Source: Clostridia bacterium (GTDB lineage: Bacteria > Bacillota > Clostridia > Christensenellales > Borkfalkiaceae). Taken from it: DNA of 38,872 bases. Location of the stretch: positions 1-38,872 of the forward strand of contig JAGHJS010000005.1 of NCBI GenBank assembly GCA_017886545.1, written 5' to 3'. Of the stretch, positions 1,390-34,092 are shown piece by piece. The translations under genes were made by a program, and so were the position numbers. The stretch's first letter is position 1, and every line of letters starts with the position of its first letter. The notes under the pieces are model-generated. The model saw only the letters and a program-made list of their open reading frames with translations. It did not search any database and was not told the origin of the DNA.

Positions 1390-3606
1390 ATGAGAGAAAC
1401 GATGAATACGCTTGCCGATTACGAACCTCTTGCATATTATACGGGAACGCTGCGCGCATCCTTTGAAAAGAATGCGGCGGACTACTTCGACGCGCTTGTG
1501 AAACGATCGGGCGTGAACGAACAGGAAAATGCCGCCACCGTCGCGCGCTACAATGCGGCGTGCGTCAAGGCGCAGCACGCCGAAAAAAAGCTGAAGTCCT
1601 GCAAAGTCCTGCGCGGGTTCGTCATCTTTTTCATCGTTGCGGCGCTCGTTGCGGCGGCCGTGCTCGCGGTGCTGTACTTCATGGCGGAGCAGCCGGACTG
1701 GATTTTGCTGCTCATTGCGGGGATCTGCCTGCTCGTCGGCGTCATACTCATCGTATTGCTTTGCACCAAGCTCAAACAGGTGCTGCAGACGCGGCAGAAA
1801 AAGTACGACAAAGCCGTTTCGCTCGCCGGGTCGATCAAAGAGCAGGCGATGACGCAGATGCGCCCCCTGCACGCGCTGTTCACCTGGAACATGACGCGCG
1901 AACTCATTCAGCGCTCCGTGCCTTTTCTGAAGCTGGACGAGACCTTCGACGTGAAAAAGCTCGACCTGCTCCGGCGCAAGTACGGGTTCGGCGCGAACAA
2001 TGACCCGAATACCTCCACCGTGTTCCTGCTTTCGGGTTCGGTGGACGGCAACCCCTTCCTTTTCGAGCGCGTGTACCGCTGCTCGATGGGGCAAAAGACG
2101 TATTACGGCTCCATCGTCATCCATTGGACGACGTACGAGCGCGATTCGGACGGGAACACCCGTGCAGTGCACCACACGCAGACGCTGACCGCGTCCGTCA
2201 CCAAGCCCGCGCCCTTCTACGGGTACGATACGCGCCTGTATTACGGCAACGAAGCCGCGCCCGACCTGCGCTTTTCGCGCCAGCCCACGCATGCGAACGA
2301 GCTGGACGAGGACGAGATCGAAAAGACGGTCAAACGCGGCAAAAAGAAGCTGGAAAAGCGTGCGCGCAAGGCGGTGGGCGCGGGCACGCAGTTCACCGAA
2401 ATGGGCAATGCGGAATTTGACGTGCTGTTCGGCGCCGTCGACCGCACCAACGAAGTGCAGTTCCGCCTGATGTTCACGCCGCTCGCGCAGCAGAACATGC
2501 TCGAACTCATCAAATCGGACGACGGCTACGGCGACGACTTCGCGTTTTATAAGACGGGCTGCATCAACTGCATCCGTTCCGAGCATGCCCAGCACTGGCA
2601 GACGGATACCGATCCCGCCCGCTACAAGAGCCACGACCTTGCGGCGGCGCGCGCGGCGTTCGTCGAGTACAACGCGGCGTACTTCAAATCGCTGTACTTC
2701 GACCTGGCGCCCGTTCTTTCGGTGCCGCTGTACCGCCAGACCAAGCCGCGCGAATTCATTTACCGCGACGTATACCCCGCCAATTACACGGGATTTGAAG
2801 CGGAGGTGCTCGCCAACAGGCTGGGCGCCGCGCCCTTTGCGCACAGAGCGGCGAAAACGGACAGTATTTTGAAAGCGTCCTTTGTCAGCAAGGACGGCGG
2901 GGCGGACAGGGTCGCCGTCACGGCAAATTCTTACGATACGCGCGAACACGTGGAGATCGTGTCCGTGTTCGGCGGCGACGGGCGCATGCACGCCGTACCC
3001 GTGCGCTGGATCGAGTACATACCCGTTTCCAATACCCGCGAAATGGCGTTGAAGGCGGTCGGCGGCACACGCGAAGGGTACGAGGCGCTGCGCAGCGGTT
3101 CCGCGCTCGCTTCCTTCGTGCGCAGGTATGCGCCGAACGGAGAATCGGCGTACTGCGACGGGCTTATCGCCTTCCCGCTCGGCGGGAACGGGTTCGGCGC
3201 CAAAGCGGATGCAGAGCTTTCGGGCATCTTCGGGCAGCGCGCGGCGGCAGCCGCGGGCGCGGCGTTCTTCGTCGGCGCCGAGGCCGTGCGTGCCGCGGCG
3301 GATAAACTGGACGCGGCGGACGACGAGGCGCGCAAACGGCGTGCGGAGCAGGCGGCGGAAGGGACAAACGAGGCGCCCGCGCTCTCGGGCAAAGGGGCAG
3401 ACCCCGCCGTGCAGAAAACAGACCCCGCTCCCGCAGCACAGAAAACAGAAGCGGCGGGCTCCGCCCCCGCGGAAAGCGTTTCCGAAGGGAACGCCTCCGC
3501 CCCGGAAGGGGAAAGAACGGACGAACCGTTCGCCGAATACACGGAGAACGCCGCGGACCCGTTCGCGGAATTCGATACCAACAACGAAAAGAAAAAGGAG
3601 GAATAA
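1390..3606 (+). CDS. Large membrane-anchored protein, LemA partner
   Basis: A 738-aa protein I do not recognise with certainty. It has a helical N-terminus rich in Lys/Glu (residues 1-80), two adjacent hydrophobic segments (about 83-105 and 113-135), then a long soluble region of mixed structure (about 140-600). The C-terminal 120 residues are low-complexity Ala/Glu/Pro/Asp-rich and probably disordered. The start is set by GGAAGGG six bases before ATG 1390; an upstream GTG at 1315 is open but has no ribosome site. It stops 3 bp before lemA, so the two are co-transcribed and probably act together at the membrane. DUF3137-type proteins are recalled as LemA neighbours and this could be a distant relative, but that rests on context only. 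Confidence 0.8.
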   Translation: MRETMNTLADYEPLAYYTGTLRASFEKNAADYFDALVKRSGVNEQENAATVARYNAACVKAQHAEKKLKSCKVLRGFVIFFIVAALVAAAVLAVLYFMAEQPDWILLLIAGICLLVGVILIVLLCTKLKQVLQTRQKKYDKAVSLAGSIKEQAMTQMRPLHALFTWNMTRELIQRSVPFLKLDETFDVKKLDLLRRKYGFGANNDPNTSTVFLLSGSVDGNPFLFERVYRCSMGQKTYYGSIVIHWTTYERDSDGNTRAVHHTQTLTASVTKPAPFYGYDTRLYYGNEAAPDLRFSRQPTHANELDEDEIEKTVKRGKKKLEKRARKAVGAGTQFTEMGNAEFDVLFGAVDRTNEVQFRLMFTPLAQQNMLELIKSDDGYGDDFAFYKTGCINCIRSEHAQHWQTDTDPARYKSHDLAAARAAFVEYNAAYFKSLYFDLAPVLSVPLYRQTKPREFIYRDVYPANYTGFEAEVLANRLGAAPFAHRAAKTDSILKASFVSKDGGADRVAVTANSYDTREHVEIVSVFGGDGRMHAVPVRWIEYIPVSNTREMALKAVGGTREGYEALRSGSALASFVRRYAPNGESAYCDGLIAFPLGGNGFGAKADAELSGIFGQRAAAAAGAAFFVGAEAVRAAADKLDAADDEARKRRAEQAAEGTNEAPALSGKGADPAVQKTDPAPAAQKTEAAGSAPAESVSEGNASAPEGERTDEPFAEYTENAADPFAEFDTNNEKKKEE

Positions 3607-3609
3607 ATC

Positions 3610-4278
3610 ATGGCAAACGAACTTGACGAACTGACCGGCCCCGTCAATCAGCAGGGGCGCGACGTCGCCGTCATCGAAAAGCAGCTCCCGATCAAGGTCG
3701 GGGTCGGCTCGCGCATTTTCGAGGTGATCCTGTGGATCCTGGGGATCTTCCCCGGGCTGATCTTCCTCATCATGAAGATCAAGGCGGGGAACTACCTTTC
3801 GCAGCTGCAGCAGAAACTGCAGCACGACGCTTCGCAGATCGATAACTACCTCGAACAGCGCGTCGTCATCCTGCAGAACTGCGCGCGCCTCCTGGATAAG
3901 GCGATCGACCTCGACAAAACGACCATGACGCAGATCGCGGCATACCGTTCGGGCGCAGACCCTTCCAACGACGGCGCCCGCAACGAGATCGCCAAGCAGA
4001 TCGATTCGGTGGGCAGGAGCATCAACCTCGCGTTTGAAAACTACCCCGACCTGAAGGCGCACGCCGAGATCGCCGACGCGATGCAGCAGAATGCCTATCT
4101 GCAGAAGGAGATCACCGCCGCGCGCGAACTGTACAACGATACGGTAAACGTGTGGAACAGGGATATCTACGCATGGCCGACCAAAATGATCGTCGCGGCG
4201 CGCCGCGGCTACACCACGCGCATCCCGTTCACCGCCTCGGCGGAGATCAAGGCGCAGGCGAGGAGCGTGTTCTTTTAA
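3610..4278 (+). CDS. lemA: LemA family membrane protein
   Basis: A 222-aa LemA-type protein. One transmembrane helix lies at about residues 37-59, followed by a long helical domain. The family hallmark is near the C-terminus: YPDLKAHAEI, then the ARELYNDTVNVWN region and a WPTKMI segment matching the usual YN..V..YN..I..FP pattern. LemA proteins form helical bundles on the cell surface or inner membrane, and their exact role is unsettled. The strong ribosome site AAGGAGG precedes the ATG. The gene follows the 738-aa partner by 3 bp and ends at a strong terminator, making a clean two-gene operon. Confidence 0.9.
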   Translation: MANELDELTGPVNQQGRDVAVIEKQLPIKVGVGSRIFEVILWILGIFPGLIFLIMKIKAGNYLSQLQQKLQHDASQIDNYLEQRVVILQNCARLLDKAIDLDKTTMTQIAAYRSGADPSNDGARNEIAKQIDSVGRSINLAFENYPDLKAHAEIADAMQQNAYLQKEITAARELYNDTVNVWNRDIYAWPTKMIVAARRGYTTRIPFTASAEIKAQARSVFF

Positions 4279-4298
4279 GAGGCGTAGCATTTTTGAAC

Positions 4299-4328
4299 AA
4301 AAAAAGCACCCCGCGGGGTGCTTTTTGT
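4299..4328. terminator. Bidirectional terminator
   Basis: A-run, GCACCCCGCGGGGTGC (8-bp arms), then TTTTTG. It works for the lemA operon on plus. Read on minus it has a U7 run and would stop transcription from the XRE gene at 4578-4360. Confidence 0.85.
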
Positions 4329-4363
4329 TTTGCCGTGCCGTACTCCTTTACGCGTGGTTTCAT
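4327..4363 (-). pseudogene. Vestigial 5' end of a second 85-aa XRE gene
   Basis: Overlapping the stop of the 72-aa XRE gene (ATGA, 4363-4360) is a start codon followed by about 11 codons (MKPRVKEYGTA) matching the first codons of the intact 85-aa XRE gene at 4889. Similarity then ends abruptly and the frame runs into the terminator. This is the scar of a tandem duplication of the two-gene unit whose second gene has been lost. Confidence 0.75.
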
Positions 4364-4578
4364 ACGTTATCCTGCAGGCAGAGGATATAGGCGGGGTCGA
4401 CGTCCAGAACGGCGCAGAGGTTTGCAAACGTATCGAGCGCGGGCATGCTCCTTCCCGAAAGATACTGCCCGACGGTCGGCTGTTTTATCCCCACTTTTGC
4501 GGCGATCTCCGTCTGTGTCATGCCGCTTTGCCGGATGGCTTCGGCAAGGCGCTGTTGTATCTGGTTTTGTACGATCAT
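4329..4578. repeat. 250-bp duplication, copy 1 (partner 4855-5104)
   Basis: A direct repeat at a constant offset of 526 bp with no indels. Positions 4517-4578 are identical to 5043-5104, and 4329-4446 differ from 4855-4972 at three sites. The 70 bp between (4447-4516) differ at about 28 sites. The divergent core is exactly the helix-turn-helix coding segment. Confidence 0.9.
4360..4578 (-). CDS. XRE-family repressor, paralogue A (72 aa)
   Basis: A compact HTH_3/XRE DNA-binding protein of 72 residues, essentially one helix-turn-helix domain (about residues 8-66) with no effector domain. The core reads MTQTEIAAKVGIKQPTVGQYL, a textbook XRE HTH. A good ribosome site AGGAG lies six bases before the ATG. 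It is identical to the protein at 4886-5104 outside residues 23-44 and differs there at 13 positions, which implies a different operator. A minus-strand terminator (4605-4632) separates it from the upstream genes, so it may have its own weak promoter or depend on read-through. By size and type it resembles phage-like or toxin-antitoxin switch regulators. Confidence 0.9.
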   Translation of the reverse strand: MIVQNQIQQRLAEAIRQSGMTQTEIAAKVGIKQPTVGQYLSGRSMPALDTFANLCAVLDVDPAYILCLQDNV

Positions 4579-4604
4579 AGGTATCTCCTGTTTAAAAGCT
4601 TAAA

Positions 4605-4632
4605 AGCCATTCCCTCATGTTCGGGAATGGCT
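4605..4632 (-). terminator. Terminator after the 85-aa XRE gene
   Basis: AGCCATTCCC and GGGAATGGCT form a 10-bp stem with an 8-nt loop. On minus it is followed by TTTTAAGCTTTT, and on plus by CATTTTT. It starts at the stop codon of the 85-aa gene. Confidence 0.7.
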
Positions 4633-4889
4633 CATTTTTCGGGCGGGAAGGGGCGGAACAGCTCTTCCATCGGTATCTGCAAAATTTGCGCAATGGCAAA
4701 CACTTCCTTATCGGTTGCGCAGCGGAGCTGCCCTTCGAGCTTGGAATAGCTCGTCGGGTTGATGTCTACGCCGAAAATCTGCAGCTTTGCGATAAAGTCT
4801 TTTTGTGCGATACGGCGTTCTTTCCGCAGCCGTTCGGCATTTCTGCCGATCAGGTTTGCCGTGCCGTACTCCTTTGCGCGTGGTTTCAT
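4632..4889 (-). CDS. XRE-family regulator (85 aa)
   Basis: A small HTH_3/XRE protein with a longer N-terminus than its neighbours. After about 14 residues comes NAERLRKERRIAQKDFIAKL, a loop, then a second helix pair with NPTSYSKLEGQ as recognition helix and an EVFAIAQILQIPMEELF tail, typical of Cro/C1-type repressors. Its start codon overlaps the stop of the 72-aa gene upstream (ATGA, 4889-4886), so translation is probably coupled. It is the only intact copy of the second gene of the duplicated pair. It and its partner probably form a two-repressor unit controlling the divergent promoter region at 5105-5204. Confidence 0.88.
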   Translation of the reverse strand: MKPRAKEYGTANLIGRNAERLRKERRIAQKDFIAKLQIFGVDINPTSYSKLEGQLRCATDKEVFAIAQILQIPMEELFRPFPPEK

Positions 4890-5104
4890 ACGTTATCCTG
4901 CAGGCAGAGGATATAGGCGGGGTCGACGTCCAGAACGGCGCAAAGGTTTGCGAACGTATCGAGCGCGGGCATCTTTTTGCCCAACAGATACTGTGAGATC
5001 ATCTGTTGGCTCACCTGCATTTTTTGGGCGATCTCTTTTTGCGTCATGCCGCTTTGCCGGATGGCTTCGGCAAGGCGCTGTTGTATCTGGTTTTGTACGA
5101 TCAT
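4855..5104. repeat. 250-bp duplication, copy 2 (partner 4329-4578)
   Basis: The second member of the 526-bp-offset direct repeat described at 4329-4578. It covers the whole 72-aa XRE gene plus the first codons of the next gene. The repeat ends precisely at the ATG of the 72-aa gene, so the upstream operators and promoter were not duplicated or have since diverged. Confidence 0.9.
4886..5104 (-). CDS. XRE-family repressor, paralogue B (72 aa)
   Basis: A single-domain XRE repressor of 72 residues with the core MTQKEIAQKMQVSQQMISQYL. The start is the ATG at 5104, which matches the start of its paralogue; upstream in-frame codons run into the regulatory inverted repeats. Residues 1-22 and 45-72 are identical to paralogue A, while 13 of the 22 residues between differ. 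It is the first gene of the minus-strand operon and its stop overlaps the next start. The palindrome CGTATACAAAGTATACG lies 10 bp upstream of its start and is a plausible autoregulatory operator. Confidence 0.9.
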   Translation of the reverse strand: MIVQNQIQQRLAEAIRQSGMTQKEIAQKMQVSQQMISQYLLGKKMPALDTFANLCAVLDVDPAYILCLQDNV

Positions 5105-5114
5105 TTCTGCACCC

Positions 5115-5131
5115 CGTATACAAAGTATACG
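5115..5131. promoter_or_regulatory. Operator-like palindrome next to the XRE operon
   Basis: CGTATACAAAGTATACG: perfect 7-bp arms with a 3-bp centre. It overlaps the only -10-like motifs (TATACT, TATACG) that could drive the minus-strand XRE genes, which fits repressor autoregulation. A matching minus-strand -35 is poor (TTTACA at 19 bp), so the promoter itself is uncertain. Confidence 0.6.
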
Positions 5132-5151
5132 TCCAGTGGGTGTAAAAATTC

Positions 5152-5181
5152 TTGACGTACAACCTACGGTTGTTTTATAAT
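5152..5181 (+). promoter_or_regulatory. Promoter with internal operator-like palindrome
   Basis: -35 TTGACG (5152-5157), 18-bp spacer, -10 TATAAT (5176-5181). The spacer contains ACAACC-TAC-GGTTGT (5159-5173), a perfect inverted repeat with 6-bp arms and a 3-bp centre, where a bound repressor would block RNA polymerase. It drives the gene at 5205. Confidence 0.75.
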
Positions 5182-5204
5182 GACAGGGTGGGGAGGAAAA
5201 ACCG

Positions 5205-5531
5205 ATGGTAACAAAAGACGTTGCCGCCGTGCTGGACGAGATACGGCAGGGGCAGGGGATCGGCATGGAGGCGCTCGCCCTGCGGATGGGCGAGGCGGAG
5301 GAGGCGCTCGCCGCTTTTTTCCGCTGCGGCGGAGAGGAGCGCCTCGGCAGAGCTGCGGCGCGGGCGCTGGGGCTGCGCGCCGACCGCTTTGAAACGTGCG
5401 CGGGCGCGGTCATCGACTATTATAAGAGTGGCATCTACTTTTCTTCGGACGAAATGCAGATGATCGCCCTGTTCCGCCGCGCGGACGCGGCCGTGCGGGA
5501 ACGGCTGCTGGCACTTTTGGCGGCGCTATAA
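5205..5531 (+). CDS. Divergent XRE-like small regulator (108 aa)
   Basis: A 108-aa protein without a confident family match. Residues 5-60 have the helix spacing of an XRE domain (VLDEIRQGQGIGMEALALRM, then an ALAAFFRCG-type helix and a final ALGLRADRFE), but the recognition helix is atypical. The C-terminus (SSDEMQMIALFRRADAAVRERLLALL) resembles the tail often found after XRE domains in Clostridia. GGGAGGA lies seven bases before the ATG. Transcription is divergent from the XRE operon, from a promoter with an operator-like palindrome in its spacer. This is the classic layout of a bistable or phage-like switch, although no phage genes are nearby. Confidence 0.75.
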   Translation: MVTKDVAAVLDEIRQGQGIGMEALALRMGEAEEALAAFFRCGGEERLGRAAARALGLRADRFETCAGAVIDYYKSGIYFSSDEMQMIALFRRADAAVRERLLALLAAL

Positions 5532-5537
5532 AACGAA

Positions 5538-5561
5538 GGCGCGCTCCCGCGGGAGCGCGCC
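5538..5561. terminator. GC-rich hairpin between convergent genes
   Basis: GGCGCGCTCCC and GGGAGCGCGCC form an 11-bp stem with a 2-base centre, between the stops of the convergent genes at 5531 and 5567. U-runs are poor on both sides (TTCGTTTTA on minus), so it is a probable but not ideal bidirectional terminator. Confidence 0.6.
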
Positions 5562-5566
5562 CTTGC

Positions 5567-7453
5567 TCATATCAGTTTTTCGTAGTCCGCATACAGGGAA
5601 TCCAGCGCAGCGTGCAGCGTTTCGAGCCGCGCGCAGGCGTCGCCGAGCGCCTTGTAATCGGCGGCGACGGCGGGGTCGGCGATGGCGGCCTGCAACGCCG
5701 CCTCCTCCGCTTCGAGGGCGGCGATTCTTGTTTCAAGCTCCTTTACGCGCTGTTTGCGCTTCGCCTCTTCGGCGCGTTCCGCCTTTGTGCGGTGCGCCGC
5801 CGCGCCCTGCTTCGCCCGCTCCTCCGCCTTCTTCGCATTGGCTGCCGCCGCCGCTTGCTGCGCGGCGCGCTTTTTCTGTTCGGCGTATTCCGCGTATCCG
5901 CAGGGGTACGGGGTGATGCGCCCGTCCGCCGCGTCCAGCACCTTTTCCGCCAGGGCGGCGGTGAAATAGCGGTCGTGCGAAACGAACAGCAGCGTGCCGC
6001 GGAAGGCTTTCAGCGCCGTTTCAAGCGCCTCGCGCGCCTGTAAGTCGAGGTGGTTGGTCGGCTCGTCCAAAATCAGCACGTTCGCCCGCTCCGCTTCGAG
6101 CAGGACGAGTGCGAGTTTCGCCCGCTCCCCGCCCGAAAGGGAGCGCACTTTTTTGTCGACGTCCTCTTCGCCGAGCTTCGCCTGCGCCAACAGCGCGCGC
6201 GCCTGCGTCTGGCTCATGCCGCGGTGCTTGTTCCACAGCGCGCCGAGCACCGTTTCGTCGGGGTCGAGCGCGGCGTTCTCCTGGTCGTAATACCCGAGCT
6301 TTACGAACCTGCCCCAGCGCACGGCGGGGTCGCGCCCGTCCGCGAGCGCGCGGGCGAGGGTGGATTTCCCCGCGCCGTTTTCGCCGAGCAGGGCGACCTT
6401 TTCGCCGCGGCGCAGGGTGAATTCCACGTCGCCGAACAGCTCCCGTTCGCCCGCAAAAAGGCGCAGGTGCCGCACTTCGAGGGTGCGCTCCTCGCTTTCG
6501 GCGTCCGTCGCAAAGCGGAACACGGGCGGCGCGGGCGGCGGCAGGGGCTTTTCGAGCCGCTCCATGTTCTCCAGCTTTTTCACGCGCGACTGCGCGCTGC
6601 TCGCCGTGGTGGCGCGCACGATGTTGCGGGCGACGTAGTCTTTCAGCTCCGCGATCTCCTTCTGCTGCTTTTCATAGGCGCGTTCCTCGGCGAGGATGCG
6701 CTCCGCTTTCAGAATTTTGTATTTGGAGTAGTTGCCGCGGTACATGTGCACCCGCCCCCGCTCCAGCTCGTAGATCTTGCCCATCAGCGCGTCGAGGAAC
6801 CAGCGGTCGTGCGAAACGGCGAACACCGCGCCGCGGTAGCCTTTCAGGTAGTCCTCCAGCCAGAACAGCGTATCCGCGTCGAGGTGGTTGGTCGGCTCGT
6901 CCAGAAGGAGCAGCTCCGGTTCTTCCAGGAGCAGGCGGCACAGTTTGAGCCGCGTCTTTTCCCCGCCGCTCATGGTGGAAACGACGCGCCCGTAGCACCC
7001 TTCGAACCCCATGCCGTTCAGCACGGTGCGGATGCGCACGTCGATGTTGTACCCGTCGGCGGCGGCGATGCGCTTTTCGAGCTTTTCGTGCTGCTGCGAA
7101 AGGGCGCGGTACGCCGTTTCGTCGGCATGGGCGAGCGCCTCTTCCGTCTCGCGCAGCTTCCCGAAGGCGGCGTATACGTCCGCGAACACGCTCTTCATCT
7201 CGTCGAGCACGGTGCGCTCGCTCTCCAGCCCGCCGTTCTGTTCGAACAGCCCCAGGCGCAGCCCGCTCTTTTTCAGCACCCTGCCCGCGTCGGGCGCGAG
7301 GGCGCCGCTCAGCAGGCGGATGAGCGTCGTTTTGCCCTCGCCGTTCGGCCCGATGAACCCCGCGCGCTCGCCCTCCGAAAGGGTCAGGCTCACGTTTTCG
7401 AGGATGGGCTTGTCGTCGTATCCGAATGTAACGTTTTCCAGTTGAATGAGCAT
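5567..7453 (-). CDS. ABC-F family ATPase (YdiF/Uup-like)
   Basis: A 628-aa protein with two ABC ATPase domains in tandem and no membrane segments, the ABC-F arrangement. The first Walker A is GPNGEGKT (residues 35-42), with signature MSGGEKTRLKL and Walker B LLLLDEPTNHLD. The second half has GENGAGKST, SLSGGERAKLAL and LILDEPTNHLD, and ends with the FVSHDRYF switch region. A basic, helical inter-domain linker and a long charged C-terminal coiled coil (about 530-628) resemble Uup/YdiF. ABC-F proteins act at the ribosomal E-site, in translation rescue or antibiotic protection. Nothing here shows which, and the housekeeping surroundings favour a general translation role. The ribosome site is weak. 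Confidence 0.93.
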   Translation of the reverse strand: MLIQLENVTFGYDDKPILENVSLTLSEGERAGFIGPNGEGKTTLIRLLSGALAPDAGRVLKKSGLRLGLFEQNGGLESERTVLDEMKSVFADVYAAFGKLRETEEALAHADETAYRALSQQHEKLEKRIAAADGYNIDVRIRTVLNGMGFEGCYGRVVSTMSGGEKTRLKLCRLLLEEPELLLLDEPTNHLDADTLFWLEDYLKGYRGAVFAVSHDRWFLDALMGKIYELERGRVHMYRGNYSKYKILKAERILAEERAYEKQQKEIAELKDYVARNIVRATTASSAQSRVKKLENMERLEKPLPPPAPPVFRFATDAESEERTLEVRHLRLFAGERELFGDVEFTLRRGEKVALLGENGAGKSTLARALADGRDPAVRWGRFVKLGYYDQENAALDPDETVLGALWNKHRGMSQTQARALLAQAKLGEEDVDKKVRSLSGGERAKLALVLLEAERANVLILDEPTNHLDLQAREALETALKAFRGTLLFVSHDRYFTAALAEKVLDAADGRITPYPCGYAEYAEQKKRAAQQAAAAANAKKAEERAKQGAAAHRTKAERAEEAKRKQRVKELETRIAALEAEEAALQAAIADPAVAADYKALGDACARLETLHAALDSLYADYEKLI

Positions 7454-30601: not shown

Positions 30602-30621
30602 AATAATTAAGGAGGGAAATG

Positions 30622-33600
30622 ATGAAGGTCAGATTCAAAATACCGGCGCTTTTGGCAGCGCTGACAATGGCGATCGTATTGCTTTTTGCCGGGGTTGCCT
30701 GCGATACGGGCATTGAAGGGAGTCTGTCTCTTGACAGAACGGAAGCACAAGTCGATACGGGAAAGAGCATAACGCTCGTTCCGCAATTTGAAGGGTTCGG
30801 GGAGAACGGCCCTTCTGCGGAAGATGTGAATTGGCGTTCGGCGGCTCCTGCGATCGCGCAAGTCAGCGGAGGTGTTGTATACGGGGTCAGTGAAGGCGAG
30901 ACCGACATTACGGCGTCTCTTACGTTTGAGGATGTCGATTACAGCGCAACCTGCACCGTCACTGTTTTGCCGGGCGAAGAGGAGCACGATGTAACGATCG
31001 TCCTGGACGAGACGAGCATCACATTGACGGAGGGGGAACAGACTACGCTTTTGCCGACGGTCACGCTGGACGGCAATGTGCAGGCGGCGCCCGAAGTTTC
31101 CTGGCAGTCGGAAAATGCACAGATTGCCTCCGTTGCGGGCGGGGTAGTTACTGCCGTGGCGGCAGGCAATACGAATATCGTTGCCACCGTCACCGTTTCA
31201 GGTAAAGAGTACAGCGCCGTATGCGCCGTTACCGTGCTGGCGGCGCCGCAGACAGTGATAAGGCTCGATTCTGCTTCAAAGGAGATCGATTGGGGCGAAG
31301 AATTCACGCTGACCGCGACCGTTACAGACGGCAAAGGAAATCCTGTTGAAGATGCAAATATAGTGTGGGAGAGCTCGGACAGTACAGTTGCTACCGTTTC
31401 CGACACGGGGACCGTGACGGCAACGGGCAGTGGATATGCCGTTATCACGGCGACGGCGGAAGGCGTTTCCGCCTTCTGCGACGTGACCGTGAACGACGTG
31501 TATGACGTCACGTTTTCCCCGCTCGATGCGGAATTCGGCGCCGCCTATGAGCTGACGGAAGCGGCGGTACAGCTGCAGGACTTCCTCTCCGATCATTTCA
31601 CGATACAGGTAGAACGCAACGGCGACCCGATCACCGATCTCAACGGGCAATATACTTCGTTTGCGGTCACGGCAGACGGGACTTCCGTTTCCGTGACGGA
31701 CACGGGGCTGTCCTTTGCCGCAGTCGGCACAAGTACCGTGACGTTGCAGCTCGGCAAGAAGTTGGACGGCAGCACGCTTGCCTCCGTTTCGATTCCCGTC
31801 ACGGTCTGCGACCAAATCATTGATTCCGAAGAAGAATGGCTCGGCATTGACGGCACAAAGTATTATGTACTCGCCGCCGACCTTGATTTTTCGGAAGGAT
31901 ATACGCTCGGTACGGGCGTCAATCTTACGGGCACGCTCGACGGCGGCGGACATTCGATCACGGCGACCTTTGCGACGGGCGCGGACAACAATACGGGGCT
32001 GTTCCGCTGGATCATCGGCGGCACGGTGAAAAACCTCTCCCTGACTGCGACGTACGGCACGTTGCAGGCGAGCCGCATCGGGGCGCTCGCAATCGTCGCG
32101 CAGAATGCGGTGACGGTTGAAAACTGTTACATCCGTACAAACTATACGGAGGTGTTTGGCGGGGAAACTACGGGTATCACGGGCGTGTTCGGTTCGGTGG
32201 CAAGCAGTACGTCGGCACGCTCGGTGGTCATCCGCGATACGATCGTAGCGGTGAGCGCGCCGGCGGAAGAGGACGATGTGTTCGGGCTGATCAGCACAAG
32301 CACATGGAGCAATTATTACACGTTGCAAAACGTGCTCGTCTACACGTCGGGCGAAAATGTGGCGGCGATCGGGACGAACGGAGCGCCCACAGCGACGAAT
32401 TACGAGGCGTTCACGGGCGGGCTTGACAGCGAAACATCCGAAGCAGCGCGGACGGCATTGCTGGCAAAGGCAGAGGAGTTCGGGCTGAGCAGTTTTGTGC
32501 GCGGGGAGTTTGAGATCTCCGTTCTTACCGAAAACGCATTCATCGCGTTTGACGACGCCACGGCGGCAGTCAAGGCGGATGAAACGCTTACGTTGACGTT
32601 TACGGCGACCGACCTTACCACCAACACACCGATCGCGGCGGAAAACATTGTATGGGCGACCGATAAACCTGCCGTCGCCACGGTCGAAAACGGCGTGGTC
32701 ACGGGCGTTTCCGCAGGCACCGCCGTCATCACGGCAACGGTCAGCGTCGGCGGCAAGTCGTATTCGGCGACCGTCTCCGTCACCGTTGAAGAGCTGATCA
32801 CGGCAAGCATTTCCTTCGCGGAGGGCAACCCCACGCAGGTCAATGCGGAGGCGCAGATAACACTGGCGGTCATCGCCCGCAATCTGCTTGACGAAACGGA
32901 CATTTCTGCGGATAATATAACGTGGACATCTTCGAACGACGGCTATGCGACGGTCGCGGGCGGCGTGGTCACGGGCGTGGCGCCCGGGGAAGTCACCATC
33001 ACCGCGAGCGTGACCGTAGAAGGCAAAACGTATGAAGCAGAATGTACCATAACCGTTCTGGATGCGGTCGCGGACGTGTATGAAATTTCGCTCGCCTTTG
33101 CGGAGGAAACGTACAACTTTGAAGTCGGCGGCAGCTACACGACGGCGGCGTTCACGCTGGACGTCACGGCGACGAAAAACGGCGAGCCGTGGGACGGCTG
33201 GGCGGAGTATATCTCCTTCTCTTCGGGGAACGGCGAGCTGTTCGCGATCAGCGAAAACAGCGTCACCGTGCTCGGCACGGGCAGTACAACGGTCACGGTG
33301 AACTTCTCCTATGAAGATATTTCGCGTACCGATACCGCTGCGGTCGAGCTGTGGACGCAGCTCATCGACTCGGAGGAAGAGTATACGGCGCTGGGGAACA
33401 GCACTGCGCAGTGGAGCGGGCGCTATCTTCTCACAGCCGACCTTGATTTTTCGGAAGGATATACGCTCGGTACGGGTGTCAATCTTACGGGCACGCTCGA
33501 CGGCGGCGGACATTCGATCACGGCGACCTTTGCGACGAGTGGGAGCAACGATACGGGGTTGTTCAACTGGATCATCGGCGGCACGGTAAAGAACCTCTCT

Positions 33601-34092
33601 CTGACCGCGACGTACGGCACGCTGCAGGCAAGCCGCATCGGGGCGCTCGCGATCGTCGCGCAGAATGCGGTGACGGTTGAAAACTGCTATATCCGTACAA
33701 ACTATACGGAGTTGTTTGACGGAACGACGACCGGCATCACGGGCGTGTTCGGTTCGGTGGCAACCAGTAATTCTGCGAGATCGATAGCCATTAAGGATAC
33801 GATCGTAGCGGTGAGCGCGCCGGCGGAAGAGGACGATGTGTTCGGGCTGAACAGCACAAGCACATGGAGCAATTATTACACGTTGCAAAACGTGCTCGTC
33901 TACACGTCGGGCGAAAATGTGGCGGCAATCGGGACGAACGGAGCGCCCACAGCGACGAATTACGAGGCGTTCACGGGCGGGCTTGACAGCGAAACATCCG
34001 AAGCGGCGCGTACGGCGCTGCTGGAAAAGGCAGAGGAGTTCGGGCTGAGCAGTTTTGTGCAGGGTGCATTTGAAAGTTCCGCGCTCGTCTGA
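30622..34092 (+). CDS. Large Ig-like/beta-helix lipoprotein with internal duplication
   Basis: About 1,156 aa. The lipoprotein signal peptide is MKVRFKIPALLAALTMAIVL.. with lipobox GVAC (Cys27). Three Big2 Ig-like domains (about 33-295) are followed by a beta-rich bridge, a beta-helix/GLUG module (about 418-630), two more Big2 domains, a second bridge and a second beta-helix module (about 940-1156). The two helix modules are almost identical in DNA and protein, at an exact offset of 1,560 bp (520 codons). The start is taken as ATG 30622, five bases from GGAGGG; the ATG one codon earlier is too close. It is probably the main surface adhesin or glycan-binding protein of the locus and the last gene before the hairpins at 34145. 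Confidence 0.85.
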   Translation: MKVRFKIPALLAALTMAIVLLFAGVACDTGIEGSLSLDRTEAQVDTGKSITLVPQFEGFGENGPSAEDVNWRSAAPAIAQVSGGVVYGVSEGETDITASLTFEDVDYSATCTVTVLPGEEEHDVTIVLDETSITLTEGEQTTLLPTVTLDGNVQAAPEVSWQSENAQIASVAGGVVTAVAAGNTNIVATVTVSGKEYSAVCAVTVLAAPQTVIRLDSASKEIDWGEEFTLTATVTDGKGNPVEDANIVWESSDSTVATVSDTGTVTATGSGYAVITATAEGVSAFCDVTVNDVYDVTFSPLDAEFGAAYELTEAAVQLQDFLSDHFTIQVERNGDPITDLNGQYTSFAVTADGTSVSVTDTGLSFAAVGTSTVTLQLGKKLDGSTLASVSIPVTVCDQIIDSEEEWLGIDGTKYYVLAADLDFSEGYTLGTGVNLTGTLDGGGHSITATFATGADNNTGLFRWIIGGTVKNLSLTATYGTLQASRIGALAIVAQNAVTVENCYIRTNYTEVFGGETTGITGVFGSVASSTSARSVVIRDTIVAVSAPAEEDDVFGLISTSTWSNYYTLQNVLVYTSGENVAAIGTNGAPTATNYEAFTGGLDSETSEAARTALLAKAEEFGLSSFVRGEFEISVLTENAFIAFDDATAAVKADETLTLTFTATDLTTNTPIAAENIVWATDKPAVATVENGVVTGVSAGTAVITATVSVGGKSYSATVSVTVEELITASISFAEGNPTQVNAEAQITLAVIARNLLDETDISADNITWTSSNDGYATVAGGVVTGVAPGEVTITASVTVEGKTYEAECTITVLDAVADVYEISLAFAEETYNFEVGGSYTTAAFTLDVTATKNGEPWDGWAEYISFSSGNGELFAISENSVTVLGTGSTTVTVNFSYEDISRTDTAAVELWTQLIDSEEEYTALGNSTAQWSGRYLLTADLDFSEGYTLGTGVNLTGTLDGGGHSITATFATSGSNDTGLFNWIIGGTVKNLSLTATYGTLQASRIGALAIVAQNAVTVENCYIRTNYTELFDGTTTGITGVFGSVATSNSARSIAIKDTIVAVSAPAEEDDVFGLNSTSTWSNYYTLQNVLVYTSGENVAAIGTNGAPTATNYEAFTGGLDSETSEAARTALLEKAEEFGLSSFVQGAFESSALV
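31876..32505 (+). repeat. Internal 630-bp duplication, copy 1
   Basis: Matches 33436-34065 at a constant 1,560-bp offset without indels. Long stretches are identical including synonymous sites (for example 31876-31977 except single bases, and 32261-32448). A short patch around 32150-32240 is clearly more divergent. Confidence 0.9.
33436..34065 (+). repeat. Internal 630-bp duplication, copy 2
   Basis: Partner of 31876-32505. The mosaic of identical and divergent patches suggests a duplication later homogenised by gene conversion. Copy 2 forms the C-terminus of the protein. Confidence 0.9.

Follow-up and report, generated by a model that had tools for sequence, protein, structure and literature searches.

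How do two neighbouring genes come to encode regulators that are identical everywhere except in the part expected to read DNA? The question is raised by a 38,872-nt stretch of DNA (the window; positions 1 to 38,872 of contig JAGHJS010000005.1) from a Clostridia bacterium of the Borkfalkiaceae (GCA_017886545.1). The assembly, a MAG with 91 contigs, 2.06 Mb and a completeness of 85%, is the single one on which the pair found in the window rests. The features involved are the following.

4360 to 4578, minus strand: gene A, a 72-aa XRE protein with an A-type core (residues 21-44), apparently recombinant, its flanks nearly those of B
4886 to 5104, minus strand: gene B, a 72-aa XRE protein with a B-type core, the first gene behind a divergent promoter
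4447 to 4516, minus strand: core of gene A, with 28 of the 30 differences to B; predicted operator word ATAGnCAnTGCCTAT
4973 to 5042, minus strand: core of gene B; predicted operator word ACAACC-N3-GGTTGT
4329 to 4578, no strand assigned: first copy of a 250-nt direct repeat, gene A followed by the opening ~35 nt of a copy of frame C
4855 to 5104, no strand assigned: second copy of the 250-nt direct repeat, gene B and the beginning of frame C
4632 to 4889, minus strand: frame C, 85 aa, overlapping the stop of B by 4 nt
4329 to 4363, minus strand: remnant of the start of frame C, lying after gene A, from the repeat comparison

Both XRE frames stand where the initial annotation had placed them, and its counts hold. 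The proteins are identical at the 50 residues outside positions 23-44 and differ at 13 of the 22 inside; in DNA, 28 of the 30 differences between the 219-nt frames fall in nucleotides 63-132 (4516-4447 in the window), a 70-nt block, while the flanks differ at 3 of ~180 sites, namely synonymous changes in codons 51 and 54 and one change just beyond the stop codon. Such a concentration was never reached in 200,000 random placements of the differences, where the maximum was 22. Each protein is a single XRE domain without a second domain (HTH_3 in Pfam over residues 11-65, 51.0 bits and E 1.5e-13 for A, 51.2 bits for B, cut-off 23), and residues ~21-44 presumably form helix 2, helix 3 and the following loop. 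The repeat copies, 88% identical, begin at the ATG and end ~35 nt inside frame C, which is why a remnant of C stands after A. Frame C, between the copies, and its remnant were both absent from the initial annotation; C itself has a weak HTH_3 match in the Pfam profile search (E 0.0027, 18.1 bits against a cut-off of 23), and a counterpart follows A in the sister locus described below. The best explanation, which we hold to be likely, is that A and B are tandem paralogues within a group of ~70-aa single-domain XRE proteins of the window's bacterial family, with old, distinct heads, whose flanks have been made nearly identical by recombination and whose core reads the operator.

The argument begins with the closest relative, a sister locus (L048 of genome G007, with the same copies as L019) where the gene order is B, A, C. 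It carries the same A and B core types in flanks that have diverged. Protein identities for the N flank (residues 1-20), core (21-44) and C flank (45-69), with borders at 20, 44 and 69 that were chosen after the window pair had been seen, are these.

Window A and sister A: 45% N flank, 88% core, 80% C flank
Window A and sister B: 85% N flank, 46% core, 88% C flank
Window B and sister B: 85% N flank, 88% core, 88% C flank
Sister A and sister B: 45% N flank, 46% core, 84% C flank
Window A and window B: 100% N flank, 46% core, 100% C flank

On this comparison the A and B cores are evidently two old lineages, each conserved in the sister species, and, because the sister holds these cores in diverged flanks, window A appears to be a recombinant that joins an A core to an N flank, at least, of B type. 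That N flank is 85% identical to sister B as against 45% to sister A, hence it seems to have come from a B-type gene, with B as the likely donor on the 5' side. On the 3' side the direction of copying looks ambiguous, since the synonymous sites of that flank are nearer to sister A (0.34) than to sister B (0.60-0.66), while its residues, by contrast, are nearer to sister B.

Silent sites tell what kind of process was at work. One rival has A and B arise by a recent tandem duplication, after which the residues that contact DNA came under strong diversifying selection, a cause that the initial annotation had offered. It would suit a pair in which 13 of 22 core residues differ and the flanks are identical in protein. 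It is nevertheless very improbable, for the core synonymous sites of A and B are about as divergent (pS 0.59, against 0.00 in the N flank and 0.11 in the C flank) as those of window A and sister A (pS 0.57), that is, as between species; both core types form separate lineages in the sister and in other genomes; and orthologous cores are under purifying selection, with a dN/dS of 0.07 for the A cores of window and sister and likewise 0.07 for their B cores. Between residues 30 and 44, window A and sister A differ by 6 synonymous and 0 nonsynonymous changes. Where A and B share a residue, its codon differs at 5 of 11 core positions and at 2 of 45 flank positions (Fisher p 0.002), identical codons being found at 20 of 20 shared residues in the N flank and at 23 of 25 in the C flank. 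Purifying selection would thus have preserved an old core block between young flanks. The other routes proposed at the outset, gene conversion of the flanks or a cassette swap of the HTH, fit these old cores and young flanks: recombination made the mosaic, and flank conversion and insertion of an A core into a B copy yield the same product.

A variable block sharply bounded by constant flanks may also recall a dedicated diversification device, such as a diversity-generating retroelement or an invertible cassette. For such a device we see next to no chance. Adenine-directed changes would be expected of a retroelement, and 11 of the 30 A/B differences involve no adenine on either side; a reading of the window's open reading frame list brought no reverse transcriptase to notice. 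As for inversion, the repeat is direct, and no inverted repeat within 3600-5600 joins the flanks of both copies.

Homologues were collected. The 72-aa protein has matches in 31 of 40 genomes of the window's genus (1e-10), and at least 128 of 398 genomes match in a family search at 1e-16, in which 14 candidates per genome were scored and copies were taken from part of the matches listed; a search of a viral collection returned 2 distant loci. Duplicates were merged, and gapped tblastn hits, frames with a stop before codon 67, sequences containing N and matches with E of 1e-15 or more were dropped, which left 155 non-redundant copies at 140 loci. Among other forms, the window's own genome has, at G000:C48:4991-5422 (L003, L004), two related XRE domains in a listed 197-aa open frame. 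Thirteen loci are tandem, with 28 copies; 12 lie in genomes of the window's family and one (L074) is unplaced.

Divergence along the protein is uneven in these tandem pairs; an even course would have told against the initial annotation. The paralogue at the same locus is strictly the nearest sequence in DNA for 19 of the 28 copies in the C flank, for 7 in the N flank and for 0 in the core, and in all 28 the C flank has a better rank than the core; in a first set of 74 copies, with ties counted, the corresponding figures were 22, 8 and 1 of 28. Counted by locus, the strict C-flank effect is seen in all copies at 7 of 13 and in one copy or more at 10 of 13; no copy displays it in the sister L048, in L108 or, plainly, in L109. 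The mean fraction of foreign copies at least as close as the paralogue is 0.03 in the C flank for 17 tandem pairs, compared with 0.315 for 24 dispersed pairs of the same genome, while in the core it is 41% in tandem and dispersed pairs alike. Dispersed pairs thus lack the C-flank effect, which is therefore local to neighbours. The N flank, as a rule, shows no homogenisation (0.293 in tandem against 0.299 in dispersed pairs), being nearest to the paralogue only in the window, L074 and L108 of the 13 loci, so that the two-sided identity of the window is a stronger case than the norm. What appears to recur in other tandem loci is a one-sided mosaic, limited to the 3' flank.

These loci bear on two further explanations. 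One holds that the 3' flanks are alike from protein constraint alone, the same dimer partner being kept without any exchange of DNA. The C-terminal part of HTH_3-type domains is indeed the expected dimer region; an alignment of 26 rows shows no variation at P46, L48, D49, T50, F51, L54, C55, D59 and L66, and homology past the stop codon is absent from 9 of the 13 loci. Against it, where paralogues share a residue at the 12 other loci, identical codons are more frequent in the C flank (230 of 348) than in the core (87 of 189; p 9e-6), and the codon identity of the window pair was given above. Nor would it explain the homology that extends beyond the stop in 4 of the 13 loci (the window, L110, L113 and one pair of L115), or the lack of the effect in dispersed pairs of the same genome. 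We give this explanation little probability. The other holds that the assembly mixed up reads from the two genes where their flanks are identical, creating a chimera. Exact shared stretches of ~60-70 nt could confuse short k-mers, and the source is a MAG with the contig number and completeness given above. Yet the copies lie 526 nt apart and terminate in different unique sequence, and the 3' pattern is found in at least one copy of 9 of the 12 other loci, in other assemblies; the chance that the window pair is an artefact is slim. We retain recombination between tandem paralogues with distinct heads.

What, then, do the heads read? In the window the answer is sought upstream of B.

5152 to 5181, plus strand: promoter-like site of gene D, TTGACG-18-TATAAT, 11 of 12 consensus positions
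5159 to 5173: predicted operator 1, of B type, ACAACC-TAC-GGTTGT, in the -35/-10 spacer of the D promoter
5129 to 5143, minus strand: predicted operator 2, ACACCCACTGGACGT, imperfect (5 of 7 pairs), adjoining a -10-like TATACT (5129-5124) of B
5205 to 5531, plus strand: gene D, 108 aa, a divergent frame with an HTH-like N terminus

The D promoter is the only sigma-70-like match in 4280-5560, where shuffles give 0.7. Of the two palindromes singled out by the initial annotation, the one at 5159-5173 has counterparts in relatives and is kept here as operator 1; the other, GTATAC-AAA-GTATAC at 5117-5131, was dropped as an operator, for the sister does not keep it and reads GTATAATCTGTAAGC there. 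The sister has the same 15 bases at operator 2. With the B word in the spacer of the D promoter and an imperfect copy before B, it is probable that B represses the divergent gene D and itself via ACAACC-N3-GGTTGT: a B dimer would bind this word in the shared divergent promoter and, sitting between -35 and -10, would repress both D and its own gene. The 15-bp sites predicted for the two heads are ACAACCTACGGTTGT for B and ATAGGCAATGCCTAT for A. The pattern TTGACnnACAACCnnnGGTTGT occurs without mismatch at one place in the genome, the D promoter. With mismatches allowed, the B word was found in its own genome at 3 places, as was a backward control at 3, with 1 mismatch only at the D promoter and 2 elsewhere; a second search gave 1 forward and 1 reverse match (at the same place) against 1 and 2 for the control, and operator patterns at 2-3 mismatches gave no more places than backward controls in this genome. 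For gene D, searches of Pfam, PHROGs, NCBIfam and PADLOC returned nothing at the thresholds applied; a D profile can nevertheless be aligned to the XRE profile along 42 columns (probability 92), and the sister has a counterpart at the same place, 61% identical.

This divergent layout is widespread. In B, as in 124 of the 155 family copies, the upstream DNA has the motif GTCAAG as a landmark, together with a -10-like hexamer (3 or more of 6), the remaining 31 without promoter landmark including window A. On the opposite strand, a perfect TATAAT lies 17-18 nt from TTGAC(A) in 61 of the 124, against a mean of 0.4 and a maximum of 3 in shuffled upstream sequence; since the landmark was picked partly by its forward -10, only this reverse -10 is independent. 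Dyads in both spacers exceed shuffles (5.52 against 3.78 and 5.07 against 3.95, of 7), and particular words go with particular cores.

Dyad word ATAGGCAATGCCTAT: cores like KQPTIGQYLSGRA, in genera g1, g3, g4 and g12 of the family search
Dyad word GCTATCAATGCTAGC: core CHQAIGQYLYQNK
Dyad word ACATGCAATACATGT: core RQQQISSYLNGKT
Dyad word ACGCCCAATGGGCGT: core SQQTISHYLKGDK
Dyad word ACAACC-N3-GGTTGT: SQQMISQYLLGKK-like cores, in the window's genus

Across 7617 cross-locus pairs of the 124 copies, operator similarity follows core similarity with r 0.444, a value reached by 0 of 500 permutations, which ignore phylogeny, the sole control being a filter for unrelated flanks. For the flanks the correlation is weak (N 0.144, C 0.151), yet above nearly all permutations. 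When both flanks are less than 70% identical (4898 pairs), r is 0.362 for the core, 0.131 for the N flank and 0.107 for the C flank. Single positions with z of ~3 or more are 22, 32-34, 37, 38 and 41-44, with 3, 12 and 59 outside the core. In a leave-one-out prediction of the six half-site bases, made on the 84 of 124 landmark copies with a clear dyad (at least 6 of 7), the copy with the nearest core is right for 80%, compared with 62% for the nearest N flank, 56% for the nearest C flank and 42% for random pairs; with flanks below 70% identity the figures are 65% for the core, 41% for N and 40% for C. The A word is present within 2 mismatches in the 130 nt upstream of 14 of 18 A-type cores and of 4 of 137 others, three of these 4 looking A-like; the 4 A-type copies without it include window A. 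Statistically, then, the core is the operator-reading module of these proteins, and the difference in DNA-reading helices goes with operator specificity, as the initial annotation had supposed.

Some loci depart from the simple dyad. Cores with RQSNISHYxKGDK go in several genomes with asymmetric operators, such as ATGCC-CAATA-GCGAT, mirrored across the landmark (L069:3001, L140:533, L181:667, L191:582 and L196:571), possibly sites for mixed dimers. Later tandem copies (L048 3213-3316; L115 upstream of 2071 and 2497) have promoter-like sequence facing the preceding copy, which, as judged by eye, could give antisense RNA to the preceding gene.

The divergent promoters of the family do not all serve the same gene. 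Within ~560 nt, 84 of the 124 face one of five small gene types, and 40 face none, as scored with HMMs seeded by eye from the same loci; where one copy follows another, the partner may be that of the leading one.

Partner types (of 124): Cys-rich, ~90 aa, 35; ~72 aa, 15; DUF6809, 13; D-like, 11; 105-aa XRE, 10

The Cys-rich type and D have no match in the profile libraries, to which one representative of each type was compared (two of each of these types in Pfam); the ~72-aa type has a sub-threshold Pfam match to DUF6291 (E 0.056), another type matches DUF6809 and the 105-aa type matches HTH_3. The same head type occurs with different partners, hence heads and targets appear to be reassorted. 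The window neighbours are a LemA protein (by profile) as well as an ABC-F-like ATPase and D, named by their reading frames; by reading, the locus in L048 and L050 adjoins ABC-F-like and membrane-protease-like genes, L050 having an ispC-like gene as well. Farther along the window, 30619-34092 codes for a large protein in which, by eye, two long internal stretches resemble each other and repeats look Ig-like.

Gene A is a case apart, a head for which no site was recognised.

4605 to 4632: hairpin in the gap separating C from A; resembles a terminator on the plus strand (pattern scan), with a fold z of -3.2 on the minus strand

By its core, we infer, A would read ATAGnCAnTGCCTAT. This word is not upstream of window A. 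In its own genome it is found at 2 places with 3 mismatches (each on both strands) against 13 per strand for a backward control, and 12 matches with up to 2 mismatches compare with 23 for the control; the best match there (C36, 1 mismatch) lacks the promoter context. Searches of four relatives also gave fewer matches than their controls, the best ones in G007, G009 and G021 including sites directly upstream of an A-type gene, and those right upstream of the A-type gene of G030 having 2 mismatches. With its word missing upstream and no more frequent in the genome than a control, A may be either a relic that lost its circuit, its head kept until recently, or a protein that acts by sharing a dimer chassis with B. 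The latter can be extended into an account that we regard as unlikely though worth stating, in which local recombination keeps a common dimer chassis while the heads differ, mixed dimers form, and A anti-represses B. A, which has an A head on a B-like chassis and for which no own operator was found, would form dimers with B and loosen the hold of B on the D promoter, a built-in anti-repressor created by a natural head swap. If this were true, heads, operators and divergent partner genes across the family would make a combinatorial regulatory kit.

Much of what the locus uses is familiar. The XRE domain, self-regulation and specificity that moves with the recognition helix are already known from C proteins, CI/Cro, helix swaps and HsdS. 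In the 434 and P22 helix-swap experiments, specificity is said to move with the recognition-helix region; in the window, by contrast, the exchange happened in nature, the neighbouring genes that were read have a chromosomal look and the proteins lack a second domain. HsdS domains comprise ~150 residues and serve restriction-modification, whereas the unit exchanged here is ~24 residues of a repressor. C proteins fall into groups with different palindromes, and to our knowledge tandem paralogues with homogenised flanks have not been described for them. They belong with restriction-modification genes, none of which was recognised among the neighbours of A and B that were read. C proteins of type II restriction-modification are likewise small regulators of the promoters of their own system; phage CI/Cro repressors have the same domain class, HTH_3, and operators inside divergent promoters; and in HsdS specificity subunits recombination in conserved stretches likewise exchanges the DNA-reading part. 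Papers on these systems deal with C.Csp231I (PMC3115060), with the specificity of the 933W repressor (PMC3317979) and with HsdS recognition sequences that move within and between genes (PMC3077401). Among solved chains, PDB 7t8i alone, an Xre-family regulator of ICEBs1, matches the family profile at 1e-6 or better (4.1e-7). It is probably ImmR, which acts within a mobile element and has a peptidase as its partner, whereas no such partner was noticed at the window locus. In animal poly-zinc-finger repressors, DNA-contact residues of paralogues are said to differ on a like scaffold. The title of a paper on them invokes adaptive evolution (PMC2604467), while recombination explains the mosaic in the window. 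In the open-licence literature, titles and abstract openings yielded no description of tandem repressors with homogenised flanks and distinct heads. We know of no standard name for the arrangement.

The window offers the classic helix-swap experiment as carried out by nature, repeated in its one-sided form in one bacterial family. As an operator is visible beside most of the genes, the family provides a readable protein-DNA recognition table, with residues 22-44 on one side and half-site bases on the other. It also opens a direct route to the question of how paralogous repressors hold on to distinct targets while the DNA next to them is homogenised.
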